Part shown: piece by piece, positions 8,107 through 54,041 of the stretch
How the letters are laid out: each line of letters opens with the position of its first letter
Numbering within the stretch: the first letter of the stretch is position 1
Assembly (NCBI GenBank): GCA_963924555.1
Contig: OZ004591.1
Location: forward strand, 4,402,001-4,466,000
From: Crambe crambe
Taxonomy: Eukaryota; Porifera; Demospongiae; Poecilosclerida; Crambeidae
Reading direction: 5' to 3'
DNA: 64,000 bases
Notes under the pieces: generated by a model
What the model saw: the letters and a program-made list of their open reading frames with translations, nothing else
What the model was told of the DNA's origin: nothing
Database searches by the model: none
Position numbers and translations under genes: made by a program

Positions 8107-11100
8107 TCATGTGCAGTATTTTGTGGTGAGTGAAGTTGCTAGACTTGGATTGAATAGTCTCACAGCATCTATGATGGCTTTCCATGTTGGGGGAGGGTCC
8201 ACTGTCTTCAGCCACATTTCAAGAACCTCGATGAGAGCTGCTTTGTCTTCCTTTGTCTTGAATGTGTCGAGTTCTCCTGACTTCAGCTGCAACTGGATAC
8301 CAATGAACCTCCACTCACTGGCCACTGTAGTGTAGAGTTCACTTGTGAGGTCTTTGAGAGTTGGTTTTTGCAGGAGTAGGTTTTGTGAAGGAATTGATGA
8401 TGACTGAAAGGTGTATCCAGGAGGTGTGGCCATTGTAACTTGAGAATCTATTAATGTGAAGATCAGCCATGATCTCATGGGAATCCCCCATGGTACCTCA
8501 ACATCAAGAACTCCCATAACTATGTTAGTCATAATTATCCCAGCATTCCAAGTTTTTTATATTAAAGTTTGTGATATTTAGCTATATATACCATAGAGGC
8601 TCTAGGAGTATAGCTCAGTGTTTGTACTTACTAATTCGTTCAGAAGATTGAGCAGTGCTGGCCCCAGTCTGTGAAAAGCATAATAATGATTAAGATAGGA
8701 ACTATGATAAAAAAAAATCTCAACATTCATAGCTACAACTGGTAGCTATGGATCAGTCATAATAAAGAAGACTTACATTAGGTGCTGATGCTACTGGGGA
8801 AATCCCTGGTTGGTTTCCAGATAATGGCAGAGATTGCACTGGAGGCAATACTAATAAAAAAAATTACATCGATATCAACTGCAAGTGGATTTTTATCTAT
8901 CTATATATATCTTTATCATGGCATGCCATAGCTATAGTTGACATTACCATGAGATGAAATACACAGTACAAAGTAAGTGTAAGGTTCCTCAGCACCAAGA
9001 AGGTCAATGCTGTGTCTCAGATCAGATCTGTGACATCAAGAGGTAAGGCATCCTGGGGTAAGTGGAGCTTGAAGCCATAATCCTTCAAAGTGAAACTGAG
9101 AGTTTCTCCTCTGTAAGCAAACGAGGTTGATCCAATCACGTCCATTCCTCTCACATACTCTAATTGTTATACAAACATGATGGACATAATAATGTGGATT
9201 AGCTCTCATATTATCAGCATTCTATATTTACCATTCACTGAAGCACACATATTGGAAACTGTAGTCTGAGTTGCAATGGAATCAGTGGAAACTGAAGACT
9301 GAGTTGCCATGAAATCTGAAGATATAATTATTATAACTAACATTGATCTCACAATAGAGTAAGGAACAAGGTGCAATGAATTGATTACTAACTCAGCTAT
9401 ACACACTCTATTTCAGCTTCACCTAATTTCCTTCTTTGTTTCTCTGCTATCCTGTGCTTCCCTGGCATGTTGATCAGAAAATTGGCATAACTTAAGTACA
9501 TGCAGGGCAGAAAATTCTGACCGTTCAATACGTCTGACCCATAAGTTATACTCAGGCCTACCCACTATGCCTGCTCTCTGCTTTTATAGCAGCCATCTTC
9601 TTTGCATCTGTAGCTCTCTCCTCAGCTGTGTGCACTCTTCTTTCAGTTTCGCTGCCTCTGTGACTCGTTCAGTAGTTATTTATGCTTATGTCTACTAATA
9701 AGTTGGTCAACGGCTGATTGACCAAGTTTATAATTTGGCAGTATCCTCTCTGATCATAATTATTTCCCAGCAGAAATATTAAGCTAACTACCTGTAGATA
9801 TTCTCTCTGCTTCCATGACTCTCTCTTTAGCTCTTCTTTCAATTTCTGCAATCCTCCTCGTAGCTTCTCTTGCTTGTTGTTCAACTACTTTTGTTCGTCG
9901 ATTAGACTCTATACAGGGAAGGCAATGAGTTTTGATGATTGTTACAACTATGGATGTAGCTAGCATTGTATATAACTACATTATTGTAGTGATCTTATTG
10001 TAGTGATCCAGCTATACCTGCTGATAATCTCCTCTCTGCTTCTGTAGCTCTCTCCTCAGCTATGTGCACTCTCCTTTCAGCTTCACACACATGATTGGAT
10101 TCTATTAGGATTGGGGGTCACAGAAGTCTTCCCTACTGTATACACACATTACTATATACCTGCTGACACTCTCCTCTCAGCTTTCCTGACTCTCTCTTCC
10201 AGATCCTTCATTTTCTTTCTGATTCTCTCATTTGTCCCTCTCTGGCTGTTGTCAGCTACATCTGTCAGCACCCACTCTCCAGTGAGAGACTGCAACTCTG
10301 CAAGATAACAGATGATATAGTCTGTGAACTGTGACTGCGAAAATTGGAAAACCATGGATCTGGAAATTTCTGACCAATCACTAAATAAAACTTTTGACCA
10401 ATCACTAAATAATACTTTTGACCAATCACTAAATAAAATGTCTGACCTATCACTAATAGCTACCCTGTATTACAATTGAACTCAGATTTGAGAATAACTA
10501 TAGTCCATATTGACTCAATTAATGCTATAGCTACACATGCATTATTTTAAGCATGAGTCGATAGTATTAGAGTCTCTCTTTAATGAGAGCTGATCTATTG
10601 GTAGTACGTACAAACTTACCAAATCGTAGCACAGTGGTCTTGGCTGATTTCTTGTAGTCATCAGTAGTCATGCAACTCTTTGACCACTCACCAAGCATGA
10701 CAACTTCTGTAACTCCTGGACTGATAGTAGAGGCAGCAGCACAATGGCAAAACATTGACTGCAGACTTGGAACTTGGACCTGCACATCAAATATACACAC
10801 ATGATTAAGAATTAGATCATGAACATGTGGGGGCTGAATTCATGAGTAGATATCGCTATGGCAATGTGTCCTATAGCTAGCTATGGAAGCACCTGTATAA
10901 AATGGGTGGACCTATAGTAGTGATTCCGGAAGCTAGACCTGCCCACATATAACTAGCTCTATCTCAGAGATCAATCAACACATGAACGCTTAACTCATAT
11001 CCAGCAGCAGCTTAATAAATATACTAACTACTCAAACACCAAATGAACCAGTGTGTTATGTTCACAGTTAGCGCCATTATTTTTTAGTTCTATGGAGATT

Positions 11101-12650
11101 TATATGAGGAAAACGGTAAATCTGTATAACATCTATGTGCTTCACCTGTTCCTTGGTTAACCCATACCAGCAGGTAGGCCTTGTTATAAGCTAGCTAGTG
11201 ATACCTAAACATCAAGCGCTTCTATAACCGTCAGGCTGCGCTGGCCGGCCAAAGTTTCAGGAAATGTATGGCTTCCGGAATCGCTACCTATAGCTATCAG
11301 TTACCTCTTTCCACTTCCCTGAGTCTAGATCCAACATCCATACATCACTTAGTCTCATATTCTTAGAGTTAAGTCCCCCAATCACTAACAGTTTAGGATT
11401 GTCCCTACCATAGCCCAAACAGACTGCAACATGATAATATCTTGCCACTGGACAAGGTACTCCTTCCTGATGGGTAAGTTTTCGCCAGTACTACACAAAT
11501 TTACAATATAATATTACAGTGATACAATATCTGACATGTAAGGACAAAGGTGTGGTAGCTATGCTGACTAATCACAAATAAATCTGGTCTCCCATCACTG
11601 CATGGTTATCCTCCCAGACTAAATTTTCTGTCACTATTGGTCCAGCCATATGCATGCATGCATGCATGCATGTGCAGACACATTAATAATGTGCATACTT
11701 ATTATTGTACCATCTGTTAATGAGCAGCAGCTAGCTATGACAAAGAGAACATCTCTGATAATTGCTAAACTAGTCCAATTGGTGCACAGAAGAATAAGGA
11801 TACTTTGGTAGTTGAGATTATGAAGATTGAGATGGTGCAGGGGAATGTATAATAACCTTGTTAGATATTCAATTTTGGAAAAAAATCTAAAGATCCCAGA
11901 ACATCATCATCTCACCATAGTAGTCAAGTCTATGATGTAGACATCATTGCTCTTCCTCTTTCCACTGTGGTAACCTCCAAACAACACTGCATGATTGTCG
12001 TCCATCATAGTGAAGGAGAAATCAGAACAGGGTGGAGGCCTCGTCCCACTGACTATAGGGGAGGACCATGTACCTGCAAAGATGTATGGAAAACCTAGCC
12101 TGTACATGTATCTTAAGGTAAATGATCCCCCACCTTTTTTGAGGTCAAAGATGTGCATCTCATTAGTCCACCAACTACCATTAATTCGACTATTATTTCT
12201 TACAAATTCTACTCCTGATTGGATGGGACCTGATGGGATGCCATACCCTCCAAACAATACACATTTCTCTCCACAAACAGCCATATCATGACCCCATTTC
12301 TTCATTGGACTGTTAGCACAGTGTGGTGCCAATTCCCTCCACGATGACGTCCTAGTGTTGAACTCATAAAGAGATCCATAACGTGCCTGTCCATCAGTCC
12401 CTCCATACGTGTAAATATTATGTCCTGAAGATGCACAGGCACCACGGTAGAGCCAAAGGGGAGGGTCGCCTTCAGTTGTCTCACTTGTCCAAGACTCAAG
12501 GTAGCAATCAAAAGTCTCGATGGAAACCATCTTTTTCCCTCTTAACATAGAGAAATCTTCAGTACGTCCTCCCCACATATAGATCTGTCCATCTACGGCA
12601 GAAATGAAGGGAGCAAATCGAGGAGAGGGCTCGTCGAAGTGCACTGACAT
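8107..12650 (-). CDS. Kelch / coiled-coil / ZU5-like / Death-domain protein (gene A)
   Basis: Start ATG at 12650 (MSVHFDEPSPR). Exons: 12650-12134, 12073-11916, 11490-11305, 10779-10620 (kelch); 10297-10160 (linker ELQSLTGEWVLTD); 10101-10018 and 9908-9792 (EAERR-type coiled coil); then 9315-9233, about 9157-8945, 8850-8777, 8671-8633 and a last exon ending at the stop at 8107. The last exon carries a Death domain: LTSELYTTVASEW, then IGIQL, EVLEMWLK and PTWKAIIDAVR, the usual W/L/WL/TW pattern. The exon near 9150 resembles the start of a ZU5 domain (GETLSFTLKDYGFKL then LPQDALP); this call is tentative. Death domains mediate homotypic assembly of signalling complexes. Odd points: a doubled GATCT at about 9028 breaks the frame inside the ZU5-like exon, and a coiled-coil exon remnant at 9600-9670 lacks an acceptor. 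The 3' half may therefore be decaying or mis-assembled. The neighbours carry a kinase in the same position. Confidence 0.7.
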
Positions 12651-14539: not shown

Positions 14540-17499
<2,960 letters not shown>

Positions 17500-17663: not shown

Positions 17664-20600
17664 TCACTCGAATGTTTGGATATTGACCAGGAGTTCAGCA
17701 GCTGAGGGTCTGTTGTCTTTGTCTTGCTGAATGCATCGTCGGATCAAGTCCACCCAGTGCTGGTCTTGGATGGATGCTATCAACCGCTCGTGAGCTGAGA
17801 CTTCAGGGAATTGACAAGTGCACATCTCGACAAGGAGCACCCCAAAACTGAAGATGTCCATCTTGGGGGACTGGAGGGAAGGGTTGTGTGCCTCTGGGGC
17901 GGCATACACAGGAGAACCTGGTCCCACAGTCTGCAGTTGCTGCTGGAAGTTGACTGAACCATAATCGGTGACTTTAGCTCTCCAGTGATTGGAAGGTAGA
18001 GGCTCAAGGAGGACATTGGCACTGCTGATGTCGCGATGAACGATTGGGTCTGGCTGTATCAGGTGGAGATAGTTGAGGGCTCTGGCCACATCTAAACTGA
18101 TGGAAGTCAGTTGACGTGCTGACATGTGGAAATCTTCCTTCTCCATTTCTCTCCTCAAACTAGTTGGCATTAGCTCCATCAATATCACCATGCCTTCATC
18201 CATGCAGGCTCCAATAAACAGCACCAAATTAGGATGTCGGATTCTGGAAGCCATGTCCATCTCTCGCATGAAGAGATCTTGGTAGTAGCCAGTCCTGATG
18301 GACTTGTAAAGCATCTTGGCAGCAACTTTGACTCCTCTGAATCTTGCAACCTTCACTTCTCCCCAGCCTCCTCCTCCCAAACTCTCTTCTGTGATGTCTA
18401 TTTCTCTCCTCTGCACCACCCAATGCCTCTCATTACCTCTGCTTTCTGCCTCCCTCGTATGCTGCTGCTCAGCTTGTTGAGTAGCTCGCTCATCAACTTC
18501 ATGCGCTCTTCTTTCTGCTTCATGCATTCTTCTCTCTGCTTCAGTAGCTCGCTCTTCAACCATGTGCACTCTCCTTTCAGCTTCACGTGTTCTCATCTCA
18601 GCTTCTGTAACCCTCTGCTCTGCTTCTTTTATATGTTGTTCAGATGCTTGTGCTTCCTTGGCTCGATCAGACTCTATAAATGCACCATGAAGATTAAAAT
18701 GAAGAAAAAAGCTACATCCTTATACCCAGAAATAAGAAATGGAGGGTTTGTCTAAAGTGATTTGCAGCCAGCCTCATTCCCAGGCCCTTTACCTCCAATT
18801 CAGTTATGTATAGGGGACGAAGCTAATTTACAGCCATTCTTTTCTACTTTCTATTCCTTAAAAAGCAACTTCTTATACCAAAAATAATCAGAGGATATAA
18901 TTCATAATGACGCTTTCTAAATTGTAATTTGTTGAAAATTCTAATTATTTAGCTAGAAGCCTTAATTTTCTACTTCCCTGACGTCAGACATACCTGCCAA
19001 TACTCTTTCCTCAGCTATGTGCAGTCTTTTTTCAGCTTCTCTGACTCGTTCAGCTGCTTGTACCTCCCTTGCTAGTTGATCAGACTCTGAAAGCAAATTT
19101 AAGAATAATTAAGTATGTTGCCTCTTTGAATACTGATTCAAATATTTGACCAATGAGATATTAGTTTCATTCTTATATGGGGTAAGGGTTATACCTGCAG
19201 ATCTTCTCCTCTCTGCTTCTATAGCAGCCCTCTTCTCTGCTTCTGCAGATCTCTCCTCAGCTGTGTGCATTCTTCTTTCAGCTTCACGTCCTCTCCTTTC
19301 TGCTTCTGTGACTCGTTCTTCAGCTAACCGTGCTCTTTCTTCCACTTCCGCAATCATATTCTCTGCTTCTTTAGCTCGTTGCTCAGCTGTTCGTGCTCTT
19401 TCTGTTTCCCTGGCTATTTGTTCTATAGGTCAACCATATAACAAGTGAATAATATAGCATCAATGTCAATAGTAAATCTACAAATATTGGTCAATGAGTA
19501 TATAACTACTCTCTCTCATTGATAGGAGAATTTAATTGGCCAGCATGAAGCTACATAATTATACAGAAAAATGATTCTACATACAAAGTACTTACCATTT
19601 GATATTCTCTCTGCTTCTGTAGCTCTTTCCTCAGCTGTGTGCAGCCTCCTTTCAGTATCACCAGACCTCCTCTCTGCTTCCCTTGCTCGTTGTTCAGCTT
19701 CACGCGCTCTTCTCTCTGCCTCTGTGACTCGATTTAACTCTACAGAGGAAGATGATAATCAGCTACAACAATGATGTCTAGGATACTGAGTCCATGCAGC
19801 TACCTGTTGATAATCTCCTCTCTGCTTCTGTAGCTCTCTCCTCAGCTATGTGCACTCTCCTTTCAGCTTCACGCACATGATTGGATTCTATTAGGAGAAA
19901 TGCAGTAATGAGTTATTAGAGTTATTTAGCTACACCTAACCATACCTGCTGACATTCTCCTCTCAGTGACTCTTTCTTCAAGATCCCTCACTATTTTATC
20001 CCTTCCAACCACATCCACTGGTCTTGCTGCTACTGCACTCTGCATTTGACTCATCTTCACCATTTTCTCCCTGATCCTCTCACTTGTCCCTCGCTGGCTG
20101 TTGTCAGCTACATCTGTCAGCACCCATTCTCCAGTGAGAGACTGCAACTCTGCAAGACAACAAAAATAATAGCATTGTGAAGCTGAAACTGCACCCTATT
20201 AGGAGACTAATCATTGTGAACACGACATCCTGATCAACATGACAGGTTGATGTTACAGTATCATCATAACTCTGTATATAATCTGCTATCATTCACTATC
20301 TGAGCAATTGAATAGTACTATGAGCTACTTTACATTGATGTTTCTGAAGGAATGCAGATATTCTTCATTCTAGTGATCTGATCTACAGGCAACATTGATT
20401 AGCTGTTCAGCGATTGAGCTGATCATGACTCATTGTGTATTCAGTTAATGGATGCAGTGAGTAAATCTGACTCTCAGGTGATATGAATCCATCCAGACAG
20501 TTACATAACTATGTACATATAGGAAACTGTAATTTTTACCACAAAGCACTTACACTTAGTGACAAAATGCTGTACAGTCATGTTTGCCTATTGCATTAAT

Positions 20601-22820
20601 GCACATGCTGGACACTACTAATCATGACAGACCACCTGGTGAATTTAGAGTGTAGACCTAGATGAGTCATGAGCTATAAATAACTAGAACTAGTTATAAA
20701 GAGTTAAATAAGTACATGTCAAAATTAACATTGCACTTTGTCCTAGTAGTATAATAAAAGGAGCCTCACCAAATCGTAGCACAGTGGTCATGGACAACTT
20801 CTTGAAGTCATTGTCAGTCTTATAATTCTTTGGCCACTCAGGACTACCACCAAACATGACAACCTCTGTCACTCCTGGACTGATAGTAGAGGCAGCACCA
20901 CCATGCATATATCTAGACTGGAGACTTGGAACTTGGACCTGCACATCATGCATGTGTTTAAATATACACCTGTACACAACATTTGAACAGGACAGCTGAG
21001 CTGAGTGGATATCAGCTACAGCAAAGTATGGATACATGTCTATTGTTTGATGGAGCACGTTTGGAATACTCTCATCATTATGACACAGTTCAGGTGAGGT
21101 ATTGAGCTTGTCACTCAGGAAATCACATTTCACTTACCTCTTTCCATTTCCTTGAGTCTAGATCCAATATCCACATATCACTTAGTGCCACATTATTAGC
21201 ATCAAGTCCCCCAGTCACTAAAAGTTTAGGGTTGTTTCCACGATAGCCCAAACAGACTGCAACATGGTAATTTCTTTCCACTGGACGAGGTATTCCTTCC
21301 TGATGGTCAAGTTTACTCCAGTGCTGCATAAAGGTACACAATAGGGAGAAAAATCTATCAATCAAACAATTGTATGGAGGATAGCTATGGCACTTATTAT
21401 TACCAAAAATGGCACATTTTAATCCTTATTATTCATCCATACATCTTACCATAGTGGTCAAGTCTAAGATAAATGCATCATTACTCTTCCCTATACCAGG
21501 CTGGTAACCCCCAAATAACACTGCACGGTGGCCATCAATCATGGTAAAGGAGAAACCAGAACAGGGAGGTGGCCTTGTCCCACTGACATTTGGGGAGGAC
21601 CATGTACCTGCAATGGATTCATAGAAATATCTGTTACGTGGTAACTGAGTCTTAAATGGAGTACAGTATGTACAGATCATGAAATGAAGTATTACTTCAT
21701 CATGTGTCATTGTTACAGAACTATGACACTGATGAAGTTTTAGGACTGCATCTTTATAGTGAGATCTTCCAGAACTAACAGGTATAGAGGGAAGGAGGTG
21801 TCTGATCGAACTCTTACAATTGACTTGTTCTGGCCTGGGTACGAGGCTAGGAAGGGCTATGGAATTTTGCATGAGGATTGTACTGTTAGCATTATGTCAT
21901 AGTCAGTGAGGTATAGATAAGATGCAATGGAATGTGATACATTGCAATAGCTAACTAGTTATAAACTGCAATGGATTTGCCATCTATAAAGACAGTCTCC
22001 TATAGATAAATAGATCCCTGTCTCAAACAACCTATCACTACATGATATGATATGCCTTATGTTTAGCTGAAGTTCTTGAAGTGGCTGGTGTGACTTAGAA
22101 CAAGCTGGTAACATGTATATCCCAGTTAAGAAGTGAATGTGTGATATTATTAATCATACTCAAGTGATGTCTGCTCCCTGCCTTGAATAGGTCCCATCAT
22201 GTTTTAAACTTTTCCCCAGTAGCTAAAACCTTCACATTTTTCAGTGAATATTTCTATGCATTTATTGTTTGAGAACACAATAATAATGATGCTCCCTCAC
22301 CTTTTTTGAGGTCAAAGGTGTGCATCTCATTAGTCCACCCATATCCTTTAGTACCGGTATGTCTTACAAAGTCTGCTCCTGACTGGGTGGGACCTGATGG
22401 GATGCCATGCCCACCAAACAATACACATTTCTCTCCCCACACAACCATACCACAGTTCTTCTTCATTGGCTTCATTGGACTGTCAGCACTGTGTGGTGCC
22501 AATTCCCTCCATGATGACGTCCTAGTTCTGAACTCATATAGAGATCCATAATATGACTGTCCATCATTCCCTCCATACATGTATATGTTATGTCCTGAAG
22601 ATGCACAGGCACCACTGTAGAGCCAAGGAGGAGGATCTCCTTTAGTTGTCTTTCTAGTCCAAGTCTCAAGGTAGGGATCGAAACTCTCAATGGACACTAT
22701 CTTTTTCCCTTTACTGGTAGAAAAATCTTCAGTACGTCCTCCCCACATATAGATCTGTCCATCAACGGAAGAAAAGTAGGGATCGAATCGAGGAGAGGGC
22801 TCGTAGAGAGGCACTGCCAT
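17664..22820 (-). CDS. Kelch / coiled-coil / protein kinase (gene B, 931 aa model)
   Basis: Start ATG at 22820 (MAVPLYEPSPR). Exons: 22820-22301, 21607-21450, 21323-21138, 20938-20770 (kelch propeller), 20149-19946 (linker), five coiled-coil cassettes or parts (19887-19804, 19739-19596, 19422-19195, 19086-18994, start of last exon), and 18673-17664 (coiled coil plus kinase). The exon sum is 2796 nt, exactly 932 codons. Kinase landmarks: GGGGWGEV glycine loop, VAAKML lysine, MREMDMASRIRHPN helix C, IVHRDISSANVLL catalytic loop, DYG in place of DFG, YAAPEAH, IFSFGVLLVEM. The fold is of TKL/tyrosine-kinase-like type. All catalytic residues except the DFG Phe are present, so it is probably active. 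It has the longest coiled coil of the family here. The kelch front likely senses or binds a partner and the coiled coil oligomerises; that is inference. Confidence 0.85.
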
Positions 22821-23116: not shown

Positions 23117-24420
23117 TTAGTAACGATCAGGAGGTTGACGATTCCTTGTTGAACGTCTCAATGGCGGAGGAGGAGGTGGTGGTGGTGGTGGTGGATCAGG
23201 TGTAAAATTGGGAAGCAAGTAAGCAGGCGTGTCTGACTGTGTCGGTGCTGAAATCTCAGGTGAACAAGACTTTCGTTCAGAATCGTGTTGTTCTCGTCCT
23301 CTGATACTATCAACGTGACGACGCCACTTGATTTCCTTGGAATCAGACAATTCCAACTCATAAGAGAGTGGTCCAGTAACTTTAACAATGGAAGCAGGAA
23401 TCCACTTTGGAAGACCAGAAAAATTTTCTGCATAAACAAGATCACCAACTTGGAATGTCCGTAAGGGTCGTTTAGTGTCATGAGATTCCTTTTGCTTTTC
23501 TTGATGTGATTCCACACGTGTAGCGATACTTGGATATAATAAGTCTAGACGAGAACGAAGACGTCTTCCCATTAACATTTCACAGGGAGGAATTCCTGTA
23601 ACAGTGTGGGGGGTGACACGATAGTTGAATAAAAATTTTGAGAGCCTTTCTTGGACAGAACATCCAGAAATTCATCGAAGTGCTTGCTTAAAAGTTTGAA
23701 CAGCTCTCTCTGCTAAGCCGTTTGTGGAAGGATGGTATGGCGCTGATGTTATGTGCCGAATACCATTTCGAGCCATAAAAGTCCTGAATTCAGCACTTGT
23801 GAATGTTGGTCCATTGTCACTGACAAGCTTTTGTGGAATTCCATGATTAGCGAAAATGATCCTCAACTTTTCAATTGTTTTTGAAGCTGTTATAGATGAC
23901 ATAATTTGAACATTCACCCATTTTGAATAAGAATCCACAACTACATTTCTCCAAGAAAAGGTCCTGCAAAATCAACATGGATACGGGGACCATGGTTGAC
24001 TAGGCCATTCCCAAGGGTGGAGAGGTGCAACTGGTGGTGAGGGACGAGATTCCTGGCAATTTTTGCACTTTTTGACCATGTCAACTATGTCAGCATCCAC
24101 TCCTGGCCACCAAAGGTAGCTGCGGGCAAGCGATTTCATTTTACTTGCTCTTGGGTGTGTTTCATGCAATTCATCCAAAACTGCATTCCTGCCTTGCTGA
24201 GGAACCACAACCCTTGATCCCCAAAGGATGCATCCATCTTGTACGGTGAGTTCCTGTGATTTGGATCTGTAAGGTTTAAATTCTCTAGGAAGTTCTGTGT
24301 CTGGCCATCCCGAGAGAATATATCTTCGGACTTTTGCGAGAGTGGGGTCTTTGTTGATCCATGAACGGATATTGGCAGATGAAATGGCTGTACCAGCAAG
24401 ATGGTGAATTAGCTGTACAA
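23117..24420 (-). pseudogene. Integrase region of the LTR element, broken
   Basis: Zinc-binding N-terminal region (HETHPRASKMKSLARSYLWWPG then CKNCQESRP, 24040-24160), the catalytic core (first Asp in VDFAGP near 23975, second in VSDNGPTFTS near 23815, Glu in NGLAERAVQTF near 23710), and a C-terminal segment (VGDLVYAENF, LSYELEL) ending in a proline run and stop at 23117. Frame shifts near 24425, 23990 and 23955 and a TGA near 23672 prevent a single product. Confidence 0.85.
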
Positions 24421-25767
24421 CGTCAGCAGGGAGCCATCATTCGCTGTCGTAACAGATTGTGGTAGTCGACTGAGTGCATCAGCGTTGTTAAGCGTTTTCC
24501 CAGCTTGGTACCTGATGCTATAATGATATGATGACAAGGTGAGTGCCCATCTTTGGATTCTGGCCGAAGCCATTTGTGGTACGCCCTTCTTTTCGCTAAA
24601 AAGGTAGGATAACGGTTGGTGGTCGGACTGAATGATGAAATGGCGACCATAAATATAGTTATGGAATTTCCCAACTCCAAACAAAATGGCTAGACCTTTT
24701 TCTAGCTGAGAATAACGTTTTTCAGCTACATTAAGAGTACGTGAGACATATGCAATTGGTCGTTCTTCTCCATCAGGCATTATGTGGGATAATACAGCTC
24801 CAAGACCGTAAGCTGAAGCATCACACGCCAAGACTAGTGGTTTCAAACTATCATAATGAACAAGTAATGAATTGGTCAGTAAAGCCTCCTTTGCCAGCTG
24901 AAAAGCTTCTTCCTGCTCGTTACCCCAAACCCAAGTAGCTTTTTTACACAAGAGACTATATAACAGTTTGAGCTGAGCGGACAGACTGGACAAAAATTTG
25001 CTATAAGTTATCATGCCTAAGAATGAACGGAGTTCAGAAACATTCCTAGGATGAGGGGCTTCTCTGATTGCCTTAACTTTTTCTTGTGTCGGATGCAATC
25101 CCTTTGCATCAATTATATGGCCAAGGTACTCAATTTTATCAAGCATGAACGAGCATTTGGACTTGTTCAGTTTGAGTCCAGCTGAATTAAGTCGGTTTAA
25201 AACGGCATCCAAGTTACATAAATGCTCTTCATGCGTAGATCCCGTGACTAAGATGTCATCTAGGTAAACAGATATACCCTTAAGACCTTTTAAGAGTGAT
25301 TCAATGGTCTGCTGAAAAATAGCAGGGGCGGAAGATACCCCAAATGGCAATCTGTTATACCTGAAAAGTCCCTTATGGGTATTAATGGTGACCAGTTCCT
25401 TGGGTGACTCATCCAGGGGTAATTGCAGGTAAGCATTAGACATATCTAGTTTTGAGAATACTCTGCCACCAGATAAATCAGAAAATAACTCTTCAACACG
25501 AGGGAGGGGGTATGTCTGAACTTGGCATGCTTGATTAATAGTTACTTTATAATCTCCACATACTCTGAGAGAGCCATCTTTCTTTAATACCGGTACGATG
25601 GGGGCAGCCCATTTTGAAAATTTAACTGGGGCAATAATTCCTAAACTTTCCAAATGGTTCAGTTCAGATTCCACCTTAGCCTTTAGTACATAAGGGACAG
25701 AACGAGGACGAAAAAACTTGGGTGTGGCATGACTATCCACAGGTAAATTAACTGTCATTCCTTGCAT
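24409..25767 (-). CDS. Reverse transcriptase / RNase H of the LTR element
   Basis: One open frame of 452 codons. RT motifs: VCGDYKVTINQ, FSKLDMSNAYLQL, NRLPFGVSSAPAIFQ and the catalytic YLDDILV. RNase H follows with LACDASAYGLGAVL and QSDHQPLSYLF. The order and spacing are those of Ty3/Gypsy pol. The ATG at 25767 is internal; the natural product would be part of a gag-pol polyprotein. The upstream gag-protease frame differs and overlaps, apparently after a frameshift near 25840. Confidence 0.93.
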   Translation of the reverse strand: MQGMTVNLPVDSHATPKFFRPRSVPYVLKAKVESELNHLESLGIIAPVKFSKWAAPIVPVLKKDGSLRVCGDYKVTINQACQVQTYPLPRVEELFSDLSGGRVFSKLDMSNAYLQLPLDESPKELVTINTHKGLFRYNRLPFGVSSAPAIFQQTIESLLKGLKGISVYLDDILVTGSTHEEHLCNLDAVLNRLNSAGLKLNKSKCSFMLDKIEYLGHIIDAKGLHPTQEKVKAIREAPHPRNVSELRSFLGMITYSKFLSSLSAQLKLLYSLLCKKATWVWGNEQEEAFQLAKEALLTNSLLVHYDSLKPLVLACDASAYGLGAVLSHIMPDGEERPIAYVSRTLNVAEKRYSQLEKGLAILFGVGKFHNYIYGRHFIIQSDHQPLSYLFSEKKGVPQMASARIQRWALTLSSYHYSIRYQAGKTLNNADALSRLPQSVTTANDGSLLTLYS

Positions 25768-27934: not shown

Positions 27935-27965
<31 letters not shown>

Positions 27966-30095: not shown

Positions 30096-33048
<2,953 letters not shown>

Positions 33049-33201: not shown

Positions 33202-36200
33202 TCACTCAAATGTTTGGATATTGTCCAGGAGTTCAGCAGCTGAGGGTCTGTTGTCTTTGTCTTGCTGAATGCATCGTCGGATCAAGTCCACCCAGTGCTG
33301 GTCTTGGATGGATGCTATCAACCTCTCACGAGCTGAGACTTCAGGGAATCGACAAGTGCACATCTCGACAAGGAGCACCCCAAAACTGAAGATGTCCATC
33401 TTGGGGGACTGGAGGGAAGGGTTGTGTGCCTCTGGGGCAGCATACACAGGAGAACCTGGTCCCACAGTCTGCAGTTGCTGCTGGAAGTTGACTGAGCCAT
33501 AATCGGTGACTTTAGCTCTCCAGCGATTGGAAGGCAGAGGTTCGAGGAGGACATTGGCACTGCTGATGTCGCGATGCACGATCGGGTCTGGCTGTATCAG
33601 GTGGAGGTAGTTGAGGGCTTTGGCCACATCTAGAGCTACAGTGATGGTGAAATTGGCTGGCAAATTCTTCTGCTTCAGCTGTTGTCGTAGATTGGTGGGC
33701 ATCAATTCAGTGAGAATCACCATCTCTTCTTGCAGTGAAGCTCCAATGAACTGCACTAGATTGGGGTGGCGAAGTTTCGATGCCATGTTCATCTCTCGTA
33801 TGAAGAGATCATGGTAATACTCGTACTGCAGTTCCTTGTAAAGGAGTTTTGCAGCTACTCTGGTCCCTCTGAACTTTGCAACCATCACCTCTCCCCAACC
33901 TCCTCCACCCAAACTCTCTCTCGTGATGATAATTTCATCTCTCTGCACCACCCAATGCCTCTCCTCCTCAGCTCTCCTCTCTGGCTGTCTGCTTTGCTGT
34001 AAGGACATTCTCAATCTTCTCTCAGCTTCTGTAGCTCGTCTCTCTGCTTCTGCAGCTCGTCTCTCAGCCTCCCTTGCTTGCTGTTCAGCTGCTTGTCTTC
34101 TTTCTGCTTCCCTGGCTCGATGATTGGACTCTACAGGGGAAGGCAATGAATTTTATAATGGATGTCTACAGGGTTCTATCTACTGGCTTCCCCCCCCCCC
34201 TATTTTTTTGTAGGCTACTCCTTTTGGTGATCCTGTAGTCACCAAAGGGAGTAATTAAGGACTAATTTGGGATACTTCAGAATAGTAAGTATTTTTGGCT
34301 TAGCGCGGGAAGGAACACATCCCCCAGCTTCAGCTATGTGCACTATCCCTTCAGCTATTAGAGATTATTATACCTGTTGACACTCTCCTCTCAGCTTCCC
34401 TGACTCTTTCTCCTTGGTCCCTCACCACTTGGTTCATCTTCACCATTTTCTCCCTGATCCTCTCACTTGTCCCTCTTTGGCTGTTGTCAGCTACATCTGT
34501 CAGCACCCACTCTCCAGTGAGGGACTGCAACTCTGCAAGATAACAAAAATTGTGAAGCATCAAAATTATGAACACAACCTTCTGATCAACATGAATCTGC
34601 TATCTGAGCAATTGAATAGTACTACGAGCTACTTTCCTTCAATGTTGCTAAAGGAATGCAGATATTTTTCATTCTAGTGATCTGATCTACAGGCAACATT
34701 GATTAGCTGTTCAGCTGATCATGACTCATTGTGCATTCATGCAGTGAGTAAAGCTGACTCTCAGGTGATATGATATGAATCATAACTATGTACATGTAGG
34801 AAACTGTAATTTTTACCACAAAGCACTTACAAAATGCTGTACAGTCAATCATGTTTGCCTATTGCATTAATGGATATGCTGGACACTACTAATCATGACA
34901 GACCACCTGGTGAATTTAGAGTGTAGACCTAGATGAGTCATGAGTTATAAATAACTAGAACTAGTTATAAAGAGTTAAATAAGTACATGTCAAAATTAAC
35001 ATTGCACTTTGTCCTAGTAGTATAATAAAAGGAGCCTCACCAAATCGTAGCACAGTGGTCATGGACAACTTCTTGAGGTCATCAAGAGTCTTATTCTTTG
35101 GCCACTCAGGACTACCACCAAACATGACAACCTCTGTCACTCCTGGACTGATAGTAGAGGCAGCAGCACAATGCCGGAATCTAGACTGAAGTCTTGAAAC
35201 ATGGACCTGCACATCATGCATGTGTTTAAATATACACCTGTGCACAACATTTGAACAGGACAGCTGAGCTGAGTGGATATCAGCTACAGCAAAGTATGGA
35301 CACATGTCTATTGTTGGATGGAGCACGTTTGGAATACTCTCATCATTATGACACAGTTCAGGTGAGGTATTGAGCTTGTCACTCAGTAAATCACATTCAC
35401 TTACCTCTTTCCACTTCCTTGAGTCTAGATCCAATATCCACACATCACTTAGTGTCACACCATTAGCATCATATCCCCCAGTCACTAAAAGTTTAGGGTT
35501 GTCCCCACCATAGCCCAAACAGACTGCAACATGAGAATTTCTTGCCACTGGATGAGGTACTCCTTCCTGATGGTCAAGTTTACTCCAGTGCTGCATAAAG
35601 GTACACAGGGAGAAAAATCTATCAATCAAACAATTGTATGGAGGATAGCTATGGCACTTATTATTACAAAAAATGGCACATTTTAATCCTTATTATTCAT
35701 CCATACATCTCACCATAGTGGTCAAGTCTAAGATAAATGCATCATTACTCCTCCCTATACCAGGCTGGTAACCCCCAAACAACACTGCATGGTGGCCATC
35801 AATCATGGTAAAGGAGAAACCAGCACAGGGAGGTGGCCTTGTCCCACTGACAGTAGGGGAGGACCATGTACCTGCAATGGATTCATAGAAATATCTGTTA
35901 CGTAGTAACTGAGTCTTAAATGGAGTACAGTATGTACAGATCATGAAATGAAGTATTACTTCATCATGTGTAATTGTTACAGAACTATGACACTGATAAA
36001 GTTTTAGGACTGCATCTTTATAGTGAGATCTTCCAGAACTAACAGGTATAGAGGGAAGGAGGTGTCTGGTCAAACTCTTACAATTGACTTGTTCTGGCCT
36101 GGGTACGAGGCTAGGAAGGGCTATGGAATTTTGCATGAGGATTGTACTGTTAGCATTATGTCATAGTCAGTGAGGTATAGATAAGATGCAATGGAATGTG

Positions 36201-37072
36201 ATACATTGCAATAGCTAACTAGTTATAAACTGCAATGGATTTGCCATCCATAAAGACAGTCTCCTATAGATAAACAGATCCCTGTCTCAAACAACCTATC
36301 ACTACATGATATGATACGCCTTATGTTTAGCTGAAGTTCTTGAAGTGGCTGGTGCGACTTAGAACAAGCCGGTAACATGTATATCCCAGTTAAGAAGTGA
36401 ATGTGTGATATTATTAATCATACTCAAGTGATGTCTGCTCCCTGCCTTGAATAGGTCCCATCATGTTTTAAACTTTTCCCCAGTAGCTAAAACCTTCACA
36501 TTTTTCAGTGAATATTTCTATGCATTTATTGTTTGAGAACACAACAATAATGATGCTCCCTCACCTTTTTTGAGGTCAAAGGTGTGCATCTCATTAGTCC
36601 ACCCATATCCTGCAGTATGTCTTACAAAGTCTGCTCCTGACTGGGTGGGGCCTGATGGGATGCCACACCCACCAAACAATACACATTTCTCTCCCCACAC
36701 AACCATACCACAATACACCTTCTTCATTGGACTGTCAGCACTGTGTGGTGCCAATTCCCTCCATGATGACGTCCTAGTGTTGAACTCATATAGAGATCCA
36801 TAATATGACTGTCCATCATACCCTCCATACATGTATATGTTATATCCTGAAGATGTACAGGCACCACTGTAGAGCCAAGGAGGAGGATCTCCTTTAGTTG
36901 TCTTTCTAGTCCAAGTCTCAAGGTAGGGATCGAAACTCTCAATGGACACTATCTTTTTCTCTTTACTGGTAGAAAAATCTTCAGTAAGTCCTCCCCACAT
37001 ATAGGTCTGTCCATCGACGGAAGAAAAGTAGGGATTGAATCGAGGAGAGGGCTCGTAGAGAGGCACTGCCAT
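33202..37072 (-). CDS. Kelch / coiled-coil / protein kinase (gene C, 701 aa model)
   Basis: Start ATG at 37072. Exons: 37072-36565, 35871-35714, 35590-35405, 35206-35041 (kelch), 34532-34374 (linker), 34130-33202 (short coiled coil plus kinase). The sum of 2106 nt gives 702 codons. Kinase: GGGGWGEVMVAKF, VAAKLLYKE, IREMNMASKLRHPN, IVHRDISSANVLL, TDYG, YAAPEAH. The N-lobe differs strongly from B and D (LQYEYYHDLF, TELMPTNLRQQLKQK), whereas the C-lobe from ALNYLHLIQPD on is almost identical, so the exon is a mosaic. The coiled coil is reduced to one cassette. The intron 34131-34373 carries a C-tract and a small hairpin (CTCCTTTTGGTGA/TCACCAAAGGGAG). Confidence 0.87.
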
Positions 37073-37117
37073 TTTGCACGAGCCCACCCACCTATCTAGA
37101 ATGTCACGCCCACAGCA

Positions 37118-37123
37118 TTTATA
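37118..37123 (-). promoter_or_regulatory. TATA box of kelch-kinase C
   Basis: TATAAA 46 nt before the ATG, same context and spacing as genes B and D. Confidence 0.5.
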
Positions 37124-37173
37124 CAATGTAGCTATAATAACTAAAATTAATAAAAAGACAGTCAAGATCAAGA

Positions 37174-37914
37174 CAGGATCTCTTTGATTTCACGATGGAT
37201 CTGGCACAGAAAGTCTATATAAGTGACTCCTTCCCACTGCCCTGCCCCCTTGTCCTCCTTTAGGAGTCTTCTGAAGAATATCTCACTCTTATCCTTTTGT
37301 TTGCACACTACCAACTAGAAAAGGAGATAGATATAAAATTGCTAAGTCAAATACATGAATCATACCATTATCAAGGGGAAATTTGCTGCCAATAATTTGA
37401 CATAAACTTTTTAGCTTTGTTATGTACATCAAACCATACACTTCTGACTTGCTCACCTTCAGGCAGTGTTGCCTTGAGGCCTGGAGCTGGTCCAAAACAC
37501 CCCTCACCCGAAAGGACAAAGGATTGTCCAGTGCAGGGAGAGCATGCTAAACAACAAAGAATTCCACAATCCACATGACCTGATAAGACACAAGATGTGG
37601 GTACTCACAATTTCAGTATTGATCTGAGCTAGTGAGGGTACACCAAACACCTTCTGAACAGAGTCGGCTGTCCTATCCACATCACCATCACCAGACCATT
37701 CTCTATACGAATATACAACCATACATAATTCACATTATAAGCCACACCACCAAACAAGGTAAATACAGTGGAAGCTCCATGAAGGACACTCCAAATTAGG
37801 ACAAACCTCTCAAACTCAAGAAAGGACAATCTAAAAGTACCTCTGTATATGAAATAACTTCCAAAAGAGGACAACCTCTCTACAAAGGGGTCCTAAGTGT
37901 GCCCATTAGTCCAC

Positions 37915-37945
<31 letters not shown>

Positions 37946-39760
37946 TGTATGTATGTATGTATGTGGGGGTCAGTACTTGTAAGTACTATAGATCAGTGCC
38001 TCCCCGTGGTGACCCCTGGGCAGTTGTTACTTGTGACAGCTGGCTGAAGCTGATAAAAAGCACTTTTGGTTGTACTTGTTTTGAACACTGGATGCCAAAT
38101 GATGGCATCACTCAATTCTCGTCAAGAATGCTCTCCTGTGGAGGCTTTGCACACCTCTCAGGGTGGGAGATCTTTTGGTGTACGTAGAGCAGGTCAAGTG
38201 CAGAATTCTGATGTGTGGGTTCTAGCTTCATGGAATGTGAGAACATTGTTAGATGTGGAAGGGCCAACTGCTAGGCAGAGGTGGTTTGGCTCTCCATACA
38301 TGTCATGGGAGCTAGAGAGGAGGTGGAAAAATACTTTGACCTTGCTGCCCTAAGGGCTTGCATGACAGTGAAACGGCAGCAATACAGAAGAAGAAGATGT
38401 ATGTATGTATGTATGTATGCATGTATGTATGTATGTATGTATGCATGTATGTATGTATGTATGTATGTATGTATGTATGTATGCATGCATTATGTCTAGA
38501 GCTTACCAAACCAGTTTTTGCCCTGTACATCTCATTAGAGGAGGAAGACCCTTCTCATTAGTATCTAGATCATGCTATACATAGTCATAGCAATAATGAT
38601 CAGAGAGGAACTTGTAAGCATGGAAACCCCTTACCAAAGCAAACATCCTTGGATAAATGAAAGGACCCACTAAGTTAGTGGACATGTTCAAAAGACAGTG
38701 CATCATCCAACACTTCTCGTCAATACTCACAATGGGAGCTGAGGAAATAAAATAACCACTGATCACAAAACATCAGCAAAATGGAGTCTATCATTAGGTG
38801 TGAGCCTAATATGCTAGCATAATTGAGCACAATAGCAATGCTAGCATATTTGGAAAAATAGCAAGTAGAGTTCCTATGCATGCAGTGCAGGCAATTCTTC
38901 AAAGGTCAAGATAACTATTAATGCTCCAAAACTTCCTTTTGGGGCTCAATCAGCTCTGGAAAGTACTACTTGTACAACTGTCTCGTATCAATCATCAATC
39001 CATAAAGTTATCACATGTACTCACTGACTCATAAAAATTAATCTGTAACTATATTAGACTTTTTGGCTTTGTTTAAAGAACCAAAATTGTGGGTATAACT
39101 TGAGCATAATGGGAGTAGTAGTCAATCATAGTTTTATGGTTGACAAGGGTGCATTAATTAGATTGTCTCTCAGATATGCCCACACTCACAGATACCTACA
39201 GATATTAAAGATGTAAAAGGGCCACTTCTGTATAGCAGCCATTTCTCCCCGCAGCTCCATTCCAGAGCGAACCACTGGCTCCAACACTCTTGTTGGATGA
39301 AAAGATATCAGGAAGCTGAGACAGCAAACTGAACCAAAAAATAGAGCGAGTTAGCTTGAGAGAGAGAAAGAAAAATGATAAAAATATTTTTGACATGAAT
39401 TGGAAAAATAGGTAATCAACTTTACAAGGTTCAGGCAGAGCTTGTAAGTCCAGGATTAAACTCTATTTCATAACCAGCATTCTCACAGCATACTAGATAT
39501 AGAGCCCAACCAACCATTCAGTATTAATTTTAGATACCAAATATCAATACATGTAGGTAGAAAAACATGGTCCCACTGGCTACCGACTACTCTCACCTCT
39601 ATCAATACTCCCTTTCACATTGTAGAACTGGATCACTCGGTCGTACGTCACAAACCCTACTTGAATGGGGGAGCTCCCTTCATAGTGGCACTGCATCAGT
39701 TAAATAATATGTTTTACTATCAATATCAACATAGTTTCCCTTCCTATTAGCACAAAGCAA
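37174..39760 (-). pseudogene. SEC24 3' fragment, copy 2
   Basis: Same content and same lesions as copy 1: the 10-bp deletion after WIGQ, the ~2-kb internal deletion and the LINE insertion. Here the last exon runs on uninterrupted into the kelch-kinase C promoter region; the stop TGA lies just before the spacer. Both fragments therefore descend from one already broken copy. Confidence 0.92.
37914..38490 (+). mobile_element. LINE endonuclease fragment flanked by (ATGT)n, in SEC24 fragment 2
   Basis: The plus strand encodes WVLASWNVRTLLDVEGPTA (38212-38270), the typical start of a non-LTR retrotransposon endonuclease. It is truncated and followed by AALRACMTVKRQQYR-like sequence and an ATGT/ATGC microsatellite (38395-38490). 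A leading ATGT run is at 37916-37962. Confidence 0.65.
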
Positions 39761-40010: not shown

Positions 40011-42921
<2,911 letters not shown>

Positions 42922-43076
42922 CACATGGATAGGCAGACATTGTGAACGTGATAAAGCGTCCTGTTACACCAACTTTTTAAAAGAAATAACTTTGTCAATA
43001 AAAATACTGTTAACTTTCAAAACCTATACATAAAAAACAACTAAACTAACTTTTTCTGTGTGTATGTGTTCAGAGT

Positions 43077-46000
43077 TCACTGGAATGTTTGGATATTGTC
43101 CAGGAGTTCAGCAGCTGAGGGTCTGTTGTCTTTGTCTTGCTGAATGCATCGTCGGATCAAGTCCACCCAGTGCTGGTCTTGGATGGATGCTATCAACCTC
43201 TCACGAGCTGAGACTTCAGGGAATCGACAAGTGCACATCTCGACAAGGAGCACCCCAAAACTGAAGATATCCATCTTGGGGGACTGGAGGGAAGGGTTGT
43301 GTGCCTCTGGGGCAGCATACACAGGAGAACCTGGTCCCACAGTCTGCAGTTGCTGCTGGAAGTTGACTGAGCCATAATCGGTGACTTTTGCTCTCCAGCA
43401 ATCAGAAGGCAGAGGCTCAAGGAGGACGTTGGCACTGCTGATGTCGCGATGGACAATGGGGTCTGGCTGTATCAGGTGGAGGTAGTTGAGGGCTCTGGCC
43501 ACATCTAAGCTGATGGAAGTCAGTTGATGTGCTGACATGTGGAAATCTACCTTCTCCATTTCTTTCCTCAAACTAGTTGGCATTAGCTCCATCAATATTA
43601 CCATGCCTTCATCCATGCAGGCTCCAATAAACAGCACCAAGTTAGGATGTCGAATTCTGGAAGCCATGTTCATTTCTCGTACGAATAGAGATTGGTAGTA
43701 GCCAGTCCTGATGGACTTGTAAAGCATCTTGGCAGCAACTTTGATTCCTCTGAATCTTGCAACCTTCACTTCTCCCCAGCCTCCTCCTCCCAAATTCTCT
43801 TCTGTTAAGTCAATTTCTCTTCTTTGCACCACCCAATGCCTCTCATCACCTCTTCTCTCTGCCTCCCTTGCACACTGTTCAGCTTGTTGTGCTCTACTTT
43901 CTGCTTCTGTAGCTCTCTCCTCAGCTGTGAGCAGCCTTCTTTCAGTATCACCAAACCTCCTCTCTACTTCCCTTGCTCGTTGTTCAGCTTCATGTGCTCT
44001 TCTCTCTGCCTCTGTGACTCGATTGGACTCTACAGAGGAAGATGATAATTACAACAATGATAATTACAACTAGCCATACCTGCTGACACTCTCCTCTCAG
44101 CTTCCCTGACTCTTTCTTCCAGATCCCTCACCACTTGGCTTATCTTCACCATTTTCTCCCTGATCCTCTCACTCGTCCCTCGCTGGCTGTTGTCAGCTAC
44201 ATCTGTCAGCACCCACTCTCCAGTGAGAGACTCCAACTCTGCAAGACAAAAAAAAAAAAAGCATTAAGCTGGGACTGCCTCTTAGGAAAAATTTCTGACA
44301 AATCATTGAAAATATGAACATGACCTTCTGATCAACATGACCTTCTGATCAACATAACATGTTGATGTTACAGTATCATCATAACTTTGTATATAATCTG
44401 CTATCATTCACTATCTGAGCAATTGAATAGTACTACGAGCTACTTTCCTTCAATGTTGCTAAAGGAATGCAGATATTCTTCATTCTAGTGATCTGATCTA
44501 CAGGCAACATTGATTAGCTGTTCAGTGAGTGAGCTGATCATGACTCATTGTGTATTCAGTTAATGGATGCAATGAGTAAAGCTGACTCTCAGGTGATATG
44601 AATCCATCCAGACAGTTACATAACTATGTACATGTTGGGAACTGTAATTTACCACAAAGCACTTACACTTACTGACAAAATGCTGTACAGTCAATCATGT
44701 TTGCCTATTGCATTAATGCACATGCTGGACACTATTAATCATGACAGATCACCTGGTGAATTTAGAGTGTAGACCTAGATGAGTCATGAGCTATAAATAA
44801 CTAGAACTAGTTATAAAGAGTTAAATAAGTACATGTCAAAATTAACATTGCACTTTGTCCTAGTAGTATAATAAAAGGAGCCTCACCAAATCGTAGCACA
44901 GTGGTCATGGACAACTTCTTGAGGTCATCATCAGTCTTATAATTCTTTGGCCACTCAGGACTACCACCAAACATGACAACCTCTGTCACTCCTGGACTGA
45001 TAGTAGAGGCAGCAGCACAATGCAAAAATCTAGACTGGAGACTTGGAACTTGGACCTGCACATCATGCATGTGTTTAAATATACACCTGTACACAACATT
45101 TGAACAGGACAGCTGAGCTGAGTGGATATCAGCTACAGCAAAGTATGGACACATGTCTATTGTTGGATGGAGCACGTTTGGAATACTCTCATCATTATGA
45201 CGCAGTTCAGGTGAGGTATTGAGCCTGTCACTCAGTAAATTCACTTACCTCTTTCCACTTCCTTGAGTCTAGATCCAATATCCACACATCACTTAGTGTC
45301 ACATTATTAGCATCACGTCCCCCAGTCACTAAAAGTTTAGGGTTGTCCCCACCATAGCCCAAACAGACTGCAACATGAGAACTTCTTTTCACTGGACGAG
45401 GTACTCCTTCCTGATGGTCAAGTTTACTCCAGTGCTGCATAAAGGTACACAATAGGGAGAAAAATCTATCAATCAAACAATTGTATGGAGGATAGCTATG
45501 GCACTTATTATTACAAAAAATGGCACATTTTAATCCTTATTATTCATCCATACATCTCACCATAGTGGTCAAGTCTAAGATAAATGCATCATTATTCATC
45601 CCTATACCAGGCTGGTAACCCCCAAATAACACTGCACGGTGGCCATCAATCATGGTAAAGGAGAAAGCAGAACAGGGAGGTGGCCTTGTCCCACTGACAT
45701 TTGGGGAGGACCATGTACCTGCAATGGATTCATAGAAATATCTGTTACATAGTAACTGAGTCTTAAATGGAGTACAGTATGTACAGATCATGAAATGAAG
45801 TATTACTTCATCATGTGTAATTATTACAGAACTATGACACTGATGAAGTTTTAGGACTGCATCTTTATAGTGAGATCTTCCAGAACTAACAGGTATGGAA
45901 GGAGGTGTCTGGTCGAACTCTTACAATTGACTTGTTCTGGCCTGCTGGGTACAAGGCTAGGAAGGGCTATGGAATTTTGCATGAGGATTGTACTGTTAGT

Positions 46001-46918
46001 ACTATGTCATAGTCAGTGAGGTATAGATAAGATGCAATGGAATGTGATACATTGCAATAGTTAACTAGTTATAAACTGCAATGGATTTGTCATCCATAAA
46101 GACAGTCTCCTATAGATAAACAGATCCCTGTCTCAAACAACCTATCACTACATGATATGATACGCCTTATGTTTAGCTGAAGTTCTTGAAGTGGCTGGTG
46201 TGACTTAGAACAAGCCGGTAACATGTATATCCCAGTTAAGAAGTGAATGTGTGATATTATTAATCATACTCAAGTGATGTCTGCTCCCTGCCTTGAATAG
46301 GTCCCATCATGTTTTAAACTTTTCCCCAGTAGCTAAAACCTTCACATTTTTCAGTGAATATTTCTATGCATTTATTGTTTGAGAACACAATAATAATGAT
46401 GCTCCCTCACCTTTTTTGAGGTCAAAGGTGTGCATCTCATTAGTCCACCCAAATCCTTTAGTATCTCTTACAAAGTCTGCTCCTGACTGGGTGGGGCCTG
46501 ATGGGATGCTATACCCACCAAACAATACACATTTCTCTCCCCACACAACCATACCACAATACACCTTCTTCATTGGACTGTCAGCACTGTGTGGTGCCAA
46601 TTCCCTCCATGATGACGTCCTAGTGCTGAACTCATATAGAGATCCATAATATGACTGTCCATCACTCCCTCCATACATGTATATGTTATGTCCTGAAGAT
46701 GCACAGGCACCACTGTAGAGCCAAGGAGGAGGATCTCCTTTAGTTGTCTTTCTAGTCCAAGTCTCAAGGTAGGGATCGAAACTCTCAATGGACACTATCT
46801 TTTTCCCTTTACTGGTAGAAAAATCGTCAGTACGTCCTCCCCACATATAGATCTGTCCATCGACGGAAGAAAAGTAGGGATTGAATCGAGGAGAGGGCTC
46901 GTAGAGAGGCACTGCCAT
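43077..46918 (-). CDS. Kelch / coiled-coil / protein kinase (gene D, 710 aa model)
   Basis: Start ATG at 46918. Exons: 46918-46411, 45718-45561, 45434-45249, 45055-44887 (kelch), 44238-44080 (linker), 44029-43077 (coiled coil plus kinase). The sum of 2133 nt gives 711 codons. The propeller shows QIYMWGGRTDD, NIYMYGGSDG, CVLFGGYS, AVLFGGYQ, LLVTGGRD and VVMFGGSPEW. Kinase landmarks match gene B almost residue for residue (MLYKSIRTGYYQSLF, IGACMDEGMVILMELMP, HRDISSANVLL, TDYG). The coiled coil is one merged cassette. The gene lies 95 bp downstream of the SEC24 stop on the same strand, and its 3' end converges on MCM7 copy 3 (155 bp). Confidence 0.88.

Positions 46919-47013: not shown

Positions 47014-54041
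<7,028 letters not shown>

Follow-up and report, generated by a model that had tools for sequence, protein, structure and literature searches.

Does the repeated gene cluster in this part of the genome of the sponge Crambe crambe encode one protein family in which a common kind of front is joined to different signaling ends? The window, by which we mean the whole 64,000-nucleotide stretch analyzed (C14:4402001-4466000, in a genome of 143 Mb in 119 contigs), carries four genes, A to D, on its minus strand. For these, the original prediction proposed shared kelch and coiled-coil exons, followed by a kinase in B, C and D and by a ZU5-like segment and a Death domain in A. We lean towards reading the genes as a tandem family of recognition proteins, probably intracellular, that would each combine a kelch sensor, a coiled coil and an exchangeable C-terminal output. 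What is new here is that replacements between the kelch copies appear to cluster at positions matching the ligand pocket of KLHDC2.

Spliced alignments were made against a 710-residue model built from the exons of gene D. Gene B (22820-17667), gene C (37072-33205) and gene D (46918-43080) each align to this model without a stop or frameshift, in the order four kelch exons, linker exon, coiled-coil sequence and kinase; gene B has extra coiled-coil sequence beyond the model. The repeated units are 94-95% identical over kelch exons and introns in a megablast-type comparison, and 91-95% in a second one. By these results, each of B, C and D is an intact gene of the kelch–coiled-coil–kinase type, with a predicted TKL-like kinase, and lies in a tandemly duplicated unit. 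The proposed kinase ends of these three genes are thereby borne out (Pkinase E 2e-34 to 2e-33). The exons, together with those of a further copy, gene E, that lie within the window, are as follows.

17667-18472, minus strand: gene B kinase exon as aligned (frame open to 18719); Pkinase E 2.2e-34, spliced alignment
19109-20149, minus strand: gene B linker and coiled-coil exons, including 20149-20039, 19990-19946, 19739-19596 and the open frame 19109-19429; spliced alignment and list of open reading frames
20770-22820, minus strand: gene B kelch exons 22820-22301, 21607-21450, 21323-21138 and 20938-20770; spliced alignment, Pfam for exon 1
33205-34130, minus strand: gene C coiled-coil and kinase exon; Pkinase E 2.3e-33, spliced alignment
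34374-37072, minus strand: gene C linker exon 34532-34374 and its four kelch exons, which with their introns span 37072-35041; spliced alignment
43080-44029, minus strand: gene D coiled-coil and kinase exon; Pkinase E 2.2e-33, spliced alignment
44080-46918, minus strand: gene D kelch exons 46918-46411, 45718-45561, 45434-45249 and 45055-44887, and linker exon 44238-44080; spliced alignment, kelch by PDB search
165-2176, minus strand: gene E kelch exons 2176-1660, 633-476 and 350-165, outside the 8107-46918 interval of genes A to D; spliced alignment

In C (36518-37189) and D (46364-47035), minus-strand open frames reach further 5' than the first ATG and take in a hydrophobic stretch, with no start codon there. 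Further copies were found in 10-kb pieces of the genome (labels L0xx), which covered 13 other places with close relatives of gene A's Death exon, five with distant ones, and both window flanks. Gene E straddles the left window edge and continues in the left flank (L049, 8296-9987), which also holds copy F; copies G and H lie upstream of the Death tails at L032 and L031, respectively. Across the 710-residue model, B, C, D, E and G keep both an open frame and the splice phases. F and H are covered only in part, F being classed as kinase-type from its front and coiled coil, and one junction of H was assigned phase 0 by the spliced aligner. Copy E has HRN where the catalytic HRD is expected in its open kelch–kinase frame, and is thus probably an inactive pseudokinase.

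Six GG doublets, read by eye, mark the kelch propeller. The first kelch exon scores above the Pfam PF24681 cut-off of 50 in A (E 3.8e-31, 108.6 bits) and in B (E 5.4e-19, 68.8 bits), the four kelch exons of D were recognized by PDB search, and those of C by alignment to D. The PDB match to KLHDC2 (E about 1e-20) runs in one alignment over residues 23-316 of 340; dynein heavy-chain kelch matches are level with it, but in shorter stretches. No BTB domain was found in the exons scanned, with a model that starts at kelch and no search for BTB made in the DNA before exon 1. The coiled coil was read by eye; its Pfam tropomyosin matches are weak and do not reach the cut-off (E 0.002-0.012). In B, C, D, G and H, the glycine loop, the VAAK lysine, HRD...N, DYG in place of DFG, and APE could be read by eye, and by these motif criteria their kinases would be active protein kinases. 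DYG in place of DFG is also found in LRRK2. The top PDB matches of the kinase are CTR1, TAK1 and MLK4 (E 4.5e-24 to 5e-21), followed by IRAK4 among others including CSK, a ranking by match to solved structures.

Gene A shares its front with these genes, as the original prediction had held: the exon phases 1,0,0,1 and the linker are common to A and B-D, and the kelch exons are of near-equal size (517/158/186/160 bases in A, 508/158/186/169 in D). Its parts are listed from the 3' end.

8107-8519, minus strand: gene A Death-domain exon, which contains the stop codon; Pfam Death 14.1-14.4 bits, under the cut-off; family profile FADD E 1.7e-4; AG acceptor, open to stop
8632-8668, minus strand: gene A short exon (TGASTAQSSERI); spliced alignment, splice sites checked
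8777-8850, minus strand: gene A short exon (LPPVQSLPLSGNQPG...); spliced alignment, splice sites checked
8948-9159, minus strand: gene A ZU5-UPA exon remnant, with the ZU5 start, an 867-bp deletion point near 9027 and an in-frame stop; acceptor 9159 or 9157; sequence and comparison with L031
9232-9461, minus strand: gene A two short exons, 9461-9423 and 9315-9232, preceding the ZU5 remnant; splice-site check
9566-9655, minus strand: gene A possible extra coiled-coil exon, the frame being open with or without it; spliced alignment, frame check
9792-10297, minus strand: gene A linker exon 10297-10160 and coiled-coil exons 10101-10018 and 9908-9792; spliced alignment
10620-12650, minus strand: gene A kelch exons 12650-12134, 12073-11916, 11490-11305 and 10779-10620; spliced alignment, phases 1,0,0,1; Pfam kelch exons 1-2

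The end of gene A fits the original prediction only in part. Its Death exon alone reaches 14.1 bits in Pfam against a cut-off of 22.6; a profile of 11 such exons matches FADD death domains in the PDB, and Pfam Death is found at E up to 1 in five of the 11 (best 3.2e-5). ZU5 is matched at E up to 1 in 8 of 16 exons (best 2.7e-4), a PDB search with the ZU5 profile returned no ZU5 structure and one weak xylanase match, and no model matched the UPA-like part, which is named by its position. The profile searches that had been called for placed kelch above cut-off and A's Death below it, with clear matches for Pkinase and weak ones for ZU5. Moreover, the ZU5-like segment is only what is left of a ZU5-type exon. 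Its near twin L031 has 867 bp that the exon of gene A lacks, comprising the ZU5 core and the part that follows it, and whichever of two acceptors is used, the stub runs into an in-frame stop ahead of the Death exons. Gene A as it stands therefore does not encode a kelch–ZU5–Death protein, and we rejected it as a working gene of that kind. Splicing that leaves out the stub (9159-8948) would keep the frame open from kelch through Death, giving 668 residues without 9655-9566 and 698 when it is included, and in that case alone would kelch and Death belong to one protein. Gene A does not have an intact ZU5 and UPA before Death; the ZU5-UPA exon is open in L031, L032 and L040.

A genome search with this Death exon, in which 150 of 288 candidate matches were scored, yielded at least 121 matches at E 0.001 or better and at least 15 rows at 70% identity or more, on 14 places including A. 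Three architectures stand before the Death tail among the close relatives. In the first, kelch, linker, coiled coil, ZU5 and Death follow one another (A, L031 and L040; L032 has the linker, and no kelch was found there). In the second, the propeller is visible only as a last-blade exon with a linker-like stretch (L034, L036, L037 and L039), followed by a frame containing GVPGSGKTSL, at least two ZU5 exons and Death. Such Roc/COR-like GTPase frames span 3832-6075 in L034, 3742-6048 in L036, 3814-6081 in L037 and 2133-4289 in L038, with repeated ZU5 exons and the same Death exon behind them. L038 has no kelch exon in the 2 kb covered, and the GTPase-like frame is broken into pieces in L035 and L039. 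L034, the only relative scanned, has a COR-A-like stretch at E 4e-4 (20.7 bits, cut-off 35.3); no Roc or COR match was obtained in the eight exon frames of A-D scanned. In the third architecture, long frames that look ankyrin-like by eye precede ZU5 exons and Death (L041 4830-9998; L043 8187-9998, minus strand). Single-sequence PDB searches gave no match for the ZU5-UPA stretch or for the Roc–COR-like frame. The spliced aligner marked stops and shifts in the tails of the second and third architectures, and those near query residue 205 are read as a probable small unmodeled intron. In L033, nothing but a piece of the Death exon is present. L042 has Death exons with no ZU5 seen; two or three exons that look death-fold-like, the last of them judged only by eye, lie near one another on its minus strand (394-777, 1356-1715 and 5950-6318). 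The predicted family is thus wider than had been envisaged, with the Death tail also behind Roc–COR-like GTPase or ankyrin-like frames.

Direct evidence for a swapped end comes from L040, at C14:4.234 Mb and read in reverse. It matches B from base 300 to 4937 (85-96% including introns, with gaps) and A or L031 from 4933 to its end (93-99%, with gaps; 98.9% and 98.4% in the pieces adjoining the junction), the two matches overlapping by about 5 bp. Its front matches A in exon-sized pieces only (76-92%), and its tail gives no match at all to B. The junction lies within an intron, where B-type intron sequence passes into A-type sequence around a shared TAAG; a kinase-type front thus stands before A's Death tail. 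Genes C and D are 95.3% identical over their fronts and introns versus 80.3% over the kinase part, with a synonymous divergence (dS) of 0.020 in kelch, about 1.7 in the kinase N-lobe and 0.15 in the C-lobe. This would mean that front and N-lobe have separate histories, by exchange or gene conversion. Trees of the front and kinase of five copies show no significant conflict, however (approximately unbiased test, p 0.207 and 0.0998), so it is the divergence contrast and the L040 junction that carry the argument for exchange. Phase 1 is found at the end of kelch exon 4, of the linker and of the coiled-coil exons, and likewise at the entry to the kinase exon and to the Death tail; recombination in introns downstream of the propeller can therefore join a front to either output in frame.

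The Death-type combinations may not all work. The order kelch, coiled coil, ZU5 and Death is seen again at L031 and L040 in the genome, but lesions recur with it, and each of the four ZU5–Death copies of A's kind examined carries one. Besides the deletion in A, L031 and L032 lack 130 bp at the Death junction when compared with A, kelch 1 of L031 carries a 1-bp frameshift as well, and L040 has a 1-bp frameshift in the Death exon and what looks by eye like a broken frame in one of its coiled-coil exons. These lesions, like the missing kelch of L032, speak for a reading that we regard as a serious possibility: only the kelch–kinase genes work, and the kelch–ZU5–Death copies are decaying by-products of recombination, with no live output swap in the cluster. 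Arguing in the other direction, the Death and kelch exons of A are open, its stub can be skipped in frame, and the comparison of A with L031 points to constraint (omega 0.22 for kelch and 0.24 for Death, on small counts). Furthermore, the Death-exon lesion of L040 sits within a poly-A stretch, where it could stem from an error in the reads.

The reading of the family as recognition proteins with exchangeable outputs draws on how the copies differ. Kelch exons were compared among six copies, B-G, and kinases among B, C, D, E, G and H, giving 15 pairs each. Pairwise ratios of nonsynonymous to synonymous divergence (dN/dS) range from 0.56 to 2.28 for kelch and from 0.15 to 0.36 for the kinase; between C and D, the kelch exons differ by 35.5 replacement versus 4.5 silent changes. 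Within types, the ratio of the proportions of nonsynonymous and synonymous differences (pN/pS) of the kinase is 0.235 and 0.304. Seven ligand contacts are described for KLHDC2, namely Arg236, Arg241, Ser269, Tyr163, Trp191, Trp270 and Lys147 (PMC11377542). Transferred to the kelch exons through the PDB-search alignment, six of the seven fall on variable positions, compared with 72 of 333 others (p 7e-4). When the contact classes are repeated over all blades, 19 of 25 positions are variable versus 59 of 315 (p 6e-9), and the 18 positions outside the literature set behave alike (pN 0.274). Pooled over the 15 pairs, pN is 0.271 in the pocket, compared with a difference of 0.063 in introns and with pN 0.043 and pS 0.057 in the rest of kelch. 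The signal is highest at shift 0, shifts of 1-10 residues either way being lower (next best 0.157), and was reached by none of 20,000 random position sets for the extended set and by 16 of 20,000 for the strict seven. Pocket-focused replacement together with a constrained kinase favors a diversifying recognition receptor.

Several observations weigh against this reading. Among the pocket positions, the X6 class shows no enrichment (one of six variable), the extended set was written down after the variable columns had been seen, and the 15 pairs share ancestry and are not independent. Silent change is also raised in pocket codons (pS 0.19), leaving a pocket pN/pS of 1.41 with a bootstrap range of 0.71-3.72. 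The pair E-F shows no excess of pocket replacement over introns (p 0.44); its introns diverge by 0.198, a value for which poor alignment may be responsible. Over the whole of kelch, pN/pS is 0.905 (0.62-1.35), close to neutral, and gene conversion is likely within the cluster, as would be expected if the propeller bound a host partner and its pocket varied through relaxed constraint or gene conversion after duplication and not through selection for new ligands. We consider that explanation unlikely. Pooled pocket pN is about four times the intron divergence, and pocket replacement exceeds the intron difference in 14 of the 15 pairs (p 2.4e-4 or less), all except E-F; since relaxation alone cannot exceed the neutral rate, it is insufficient here. 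The excess over introns is the stronger argument for diversifying selection than the pocket pN/pS. Of the original "fixed front, variable output", the variable output is upheld by the intronic junction of L040 and by the near-identical C and D fronts with very different N-lobes, whereas the predicted binding face is the fastest-changing part of the propeller. A strictly fixed front was rejected, as replacements are concentrated at pocket positions.

Based on these data, we propose a plausible mechanism for a diversifying recognition family. The sensor would be a KLHDC2-like propeller of six GG blades whose pocket-forming residues have diversified between copies. A ligand in the pocket would lead to clustering, with the coiled coil bringing molecules together, and clustering would activate the TKL-like kinase in trans. 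In the alternative output, a clustered ZU5-UPA-Death tail would recruit other death-fold proteins. Recombination in introns, through phase-1 borders, would pair a front with either output. One further point counts against the proposal: the hydrophobic stretch before the first ATG in C and D leaves room for an upstream exon that uses it. The role would be immune or in self/non-self recognition. Tandem, recombining, diversifying receptors are typical of both, and the present data do not separate them; no extracellular part was identified in the family, a point in which known animal allorecognition receptors differ, and allorecognition in place of pathogen sensing is therefore rather improbable in our view. 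Although the tails of L031 and L032 are near identical at 59 kb apart, an assembly or phasing error behind the chimera and some copies is very improbable, given that the kinase-type copies are distinct from one another at many sites while their frames are intact, that L040 switches at a single sharp point inside an intron and that its front is unlike every copy compared.

Several other features accompany the cluster. Pieces of an MCM gene (MCM P-loop domain) on the plus strand travel with the kelch–kinase units (15786-16813, 32022-32345 and 41897-42220). Retrotransposon pieces with gag-type protease, reverse transcriptase and RNase H, Ty3/gypsy-like by look, lie between B and C (23117-26897, minus strand), and a short tandem repeat that reads MYVC in frame, by eye, lies between duplicate units (27820-28299 and 37897-38187, plus strand). 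About 625 bp at 61285-61910 match their own reverse complement at 85%. The neighbors are a FIBP homolog (54335-55483, plus strand), a Sec23/24-type zinc finger (51279-51641, minus strand) and a zinc dehydrogenase piece (59342-59686, minus strand).

The known expanded receptor families of animals mostly use LRR, Ig or lectin sensors. We tentatively suggest, with rather less confidence than the recognition family itself, that the present genes follow an NLR-like design without NACHT or LRR, in which a kelch pocket is rewritten copy by copy under diversifying selection, interchangeable outputs (TKL kinase, ZU5–Death, or Roc–COR-like GTPase plus ZU5–Death) are attached via phase-1 introns, and new pairings arise by intronic recombination. 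If so, a kelch propeller with a rewritten pocket and exchangeable outputs would be an added sensor class, in a family where both sensor and output swaps could be read at base level and where the propellers of recent copies (B, C and D) would allow a direct ligand test.

Among known systems, KLHDC2, the kelch C-degron receptor of a CUL2 E3 ligase, resembles the family in its propeller and in the pocket on which the variable positions fall, and differs in that the family's propeller is followed by a kinase or Death tail. The Arg236/Arg241/Ser269 anchors (positions 204, 209 and 240) are Y or D, G, and S, N or Y in six kinase-type fronts, the 241 position lying beside an alignment gap. A KLHDC2-like C-degron receptor was rejected, as these carboxylate anchors are absent; the ligand class of KLHDC2 is therefore not transferable to the family. 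TAK1, MLK and plant CTR1 are the best solved-structure matches of the kinase, which differs from them in having DYG for DFG and a kelch and coiled coil in front. Ankyrins, UNC5 and PIDD1 are ZU5-UPA-Death proteins; they share with the family a ZU5-type exon, a further part and a Death exon behind fronts that vary among members, but the fronts here are kelch, Roc–COR-like or ankyrin-like, and the ZU5 matches are weak.

Searches of the open-access literature returned no kelch–kinase or kelch–death family by those phrases, nothing for kelch, death domain, coiled coil and Porifera together, and MACC1 reviews only for kelch, death domain, ZU5 and sponge; for kelch and kinase with sponge or Amphimedon, the titles and abstract starts among the matches listed held no such family. 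Kelch-motif genes decrease after exposure to microbial molecules in two sponges (PMC6208332), and kelch propellers are among changing sponge families (PMC11000336); neither source gives the architecture in its passages on kelch. ROCO proteins, which include DAPK1 and LRRK2 (PMC6337361), find a parallel in the P-loop frame before ZU5 and Death in L034, L036 and L037 and in the COR-A-like stretch of L034. Unlike them, the family has kelch in place of LRR, the window exons scanned gave no Roc–COR match, and the L034 stretch is below cut-off. Brown-algal LRR-ROC-COR genes, as described in PMC11378527, undergo exon shuffling, and the binding face of their sensor is under diversifying selection, a combination also proposed here. 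In Amphimedon, 357 TRADD-N proteins are reported, the majority of which contain Death-fold units and have ends that vary (Kaur et al. 2021, PMC8195603). The likeness lies in lineage-specific expansion, Death-fold parts, many domain combinations and a fast-evolving variable part, and the difference in that the word kelch is absent from the main text of that paper. By analogy with the Amphimedon TRADD-N and brown-algal ROCO proteins, the predicted kelch–output family resembles known recombining, diversifying sensor families, in a new form.

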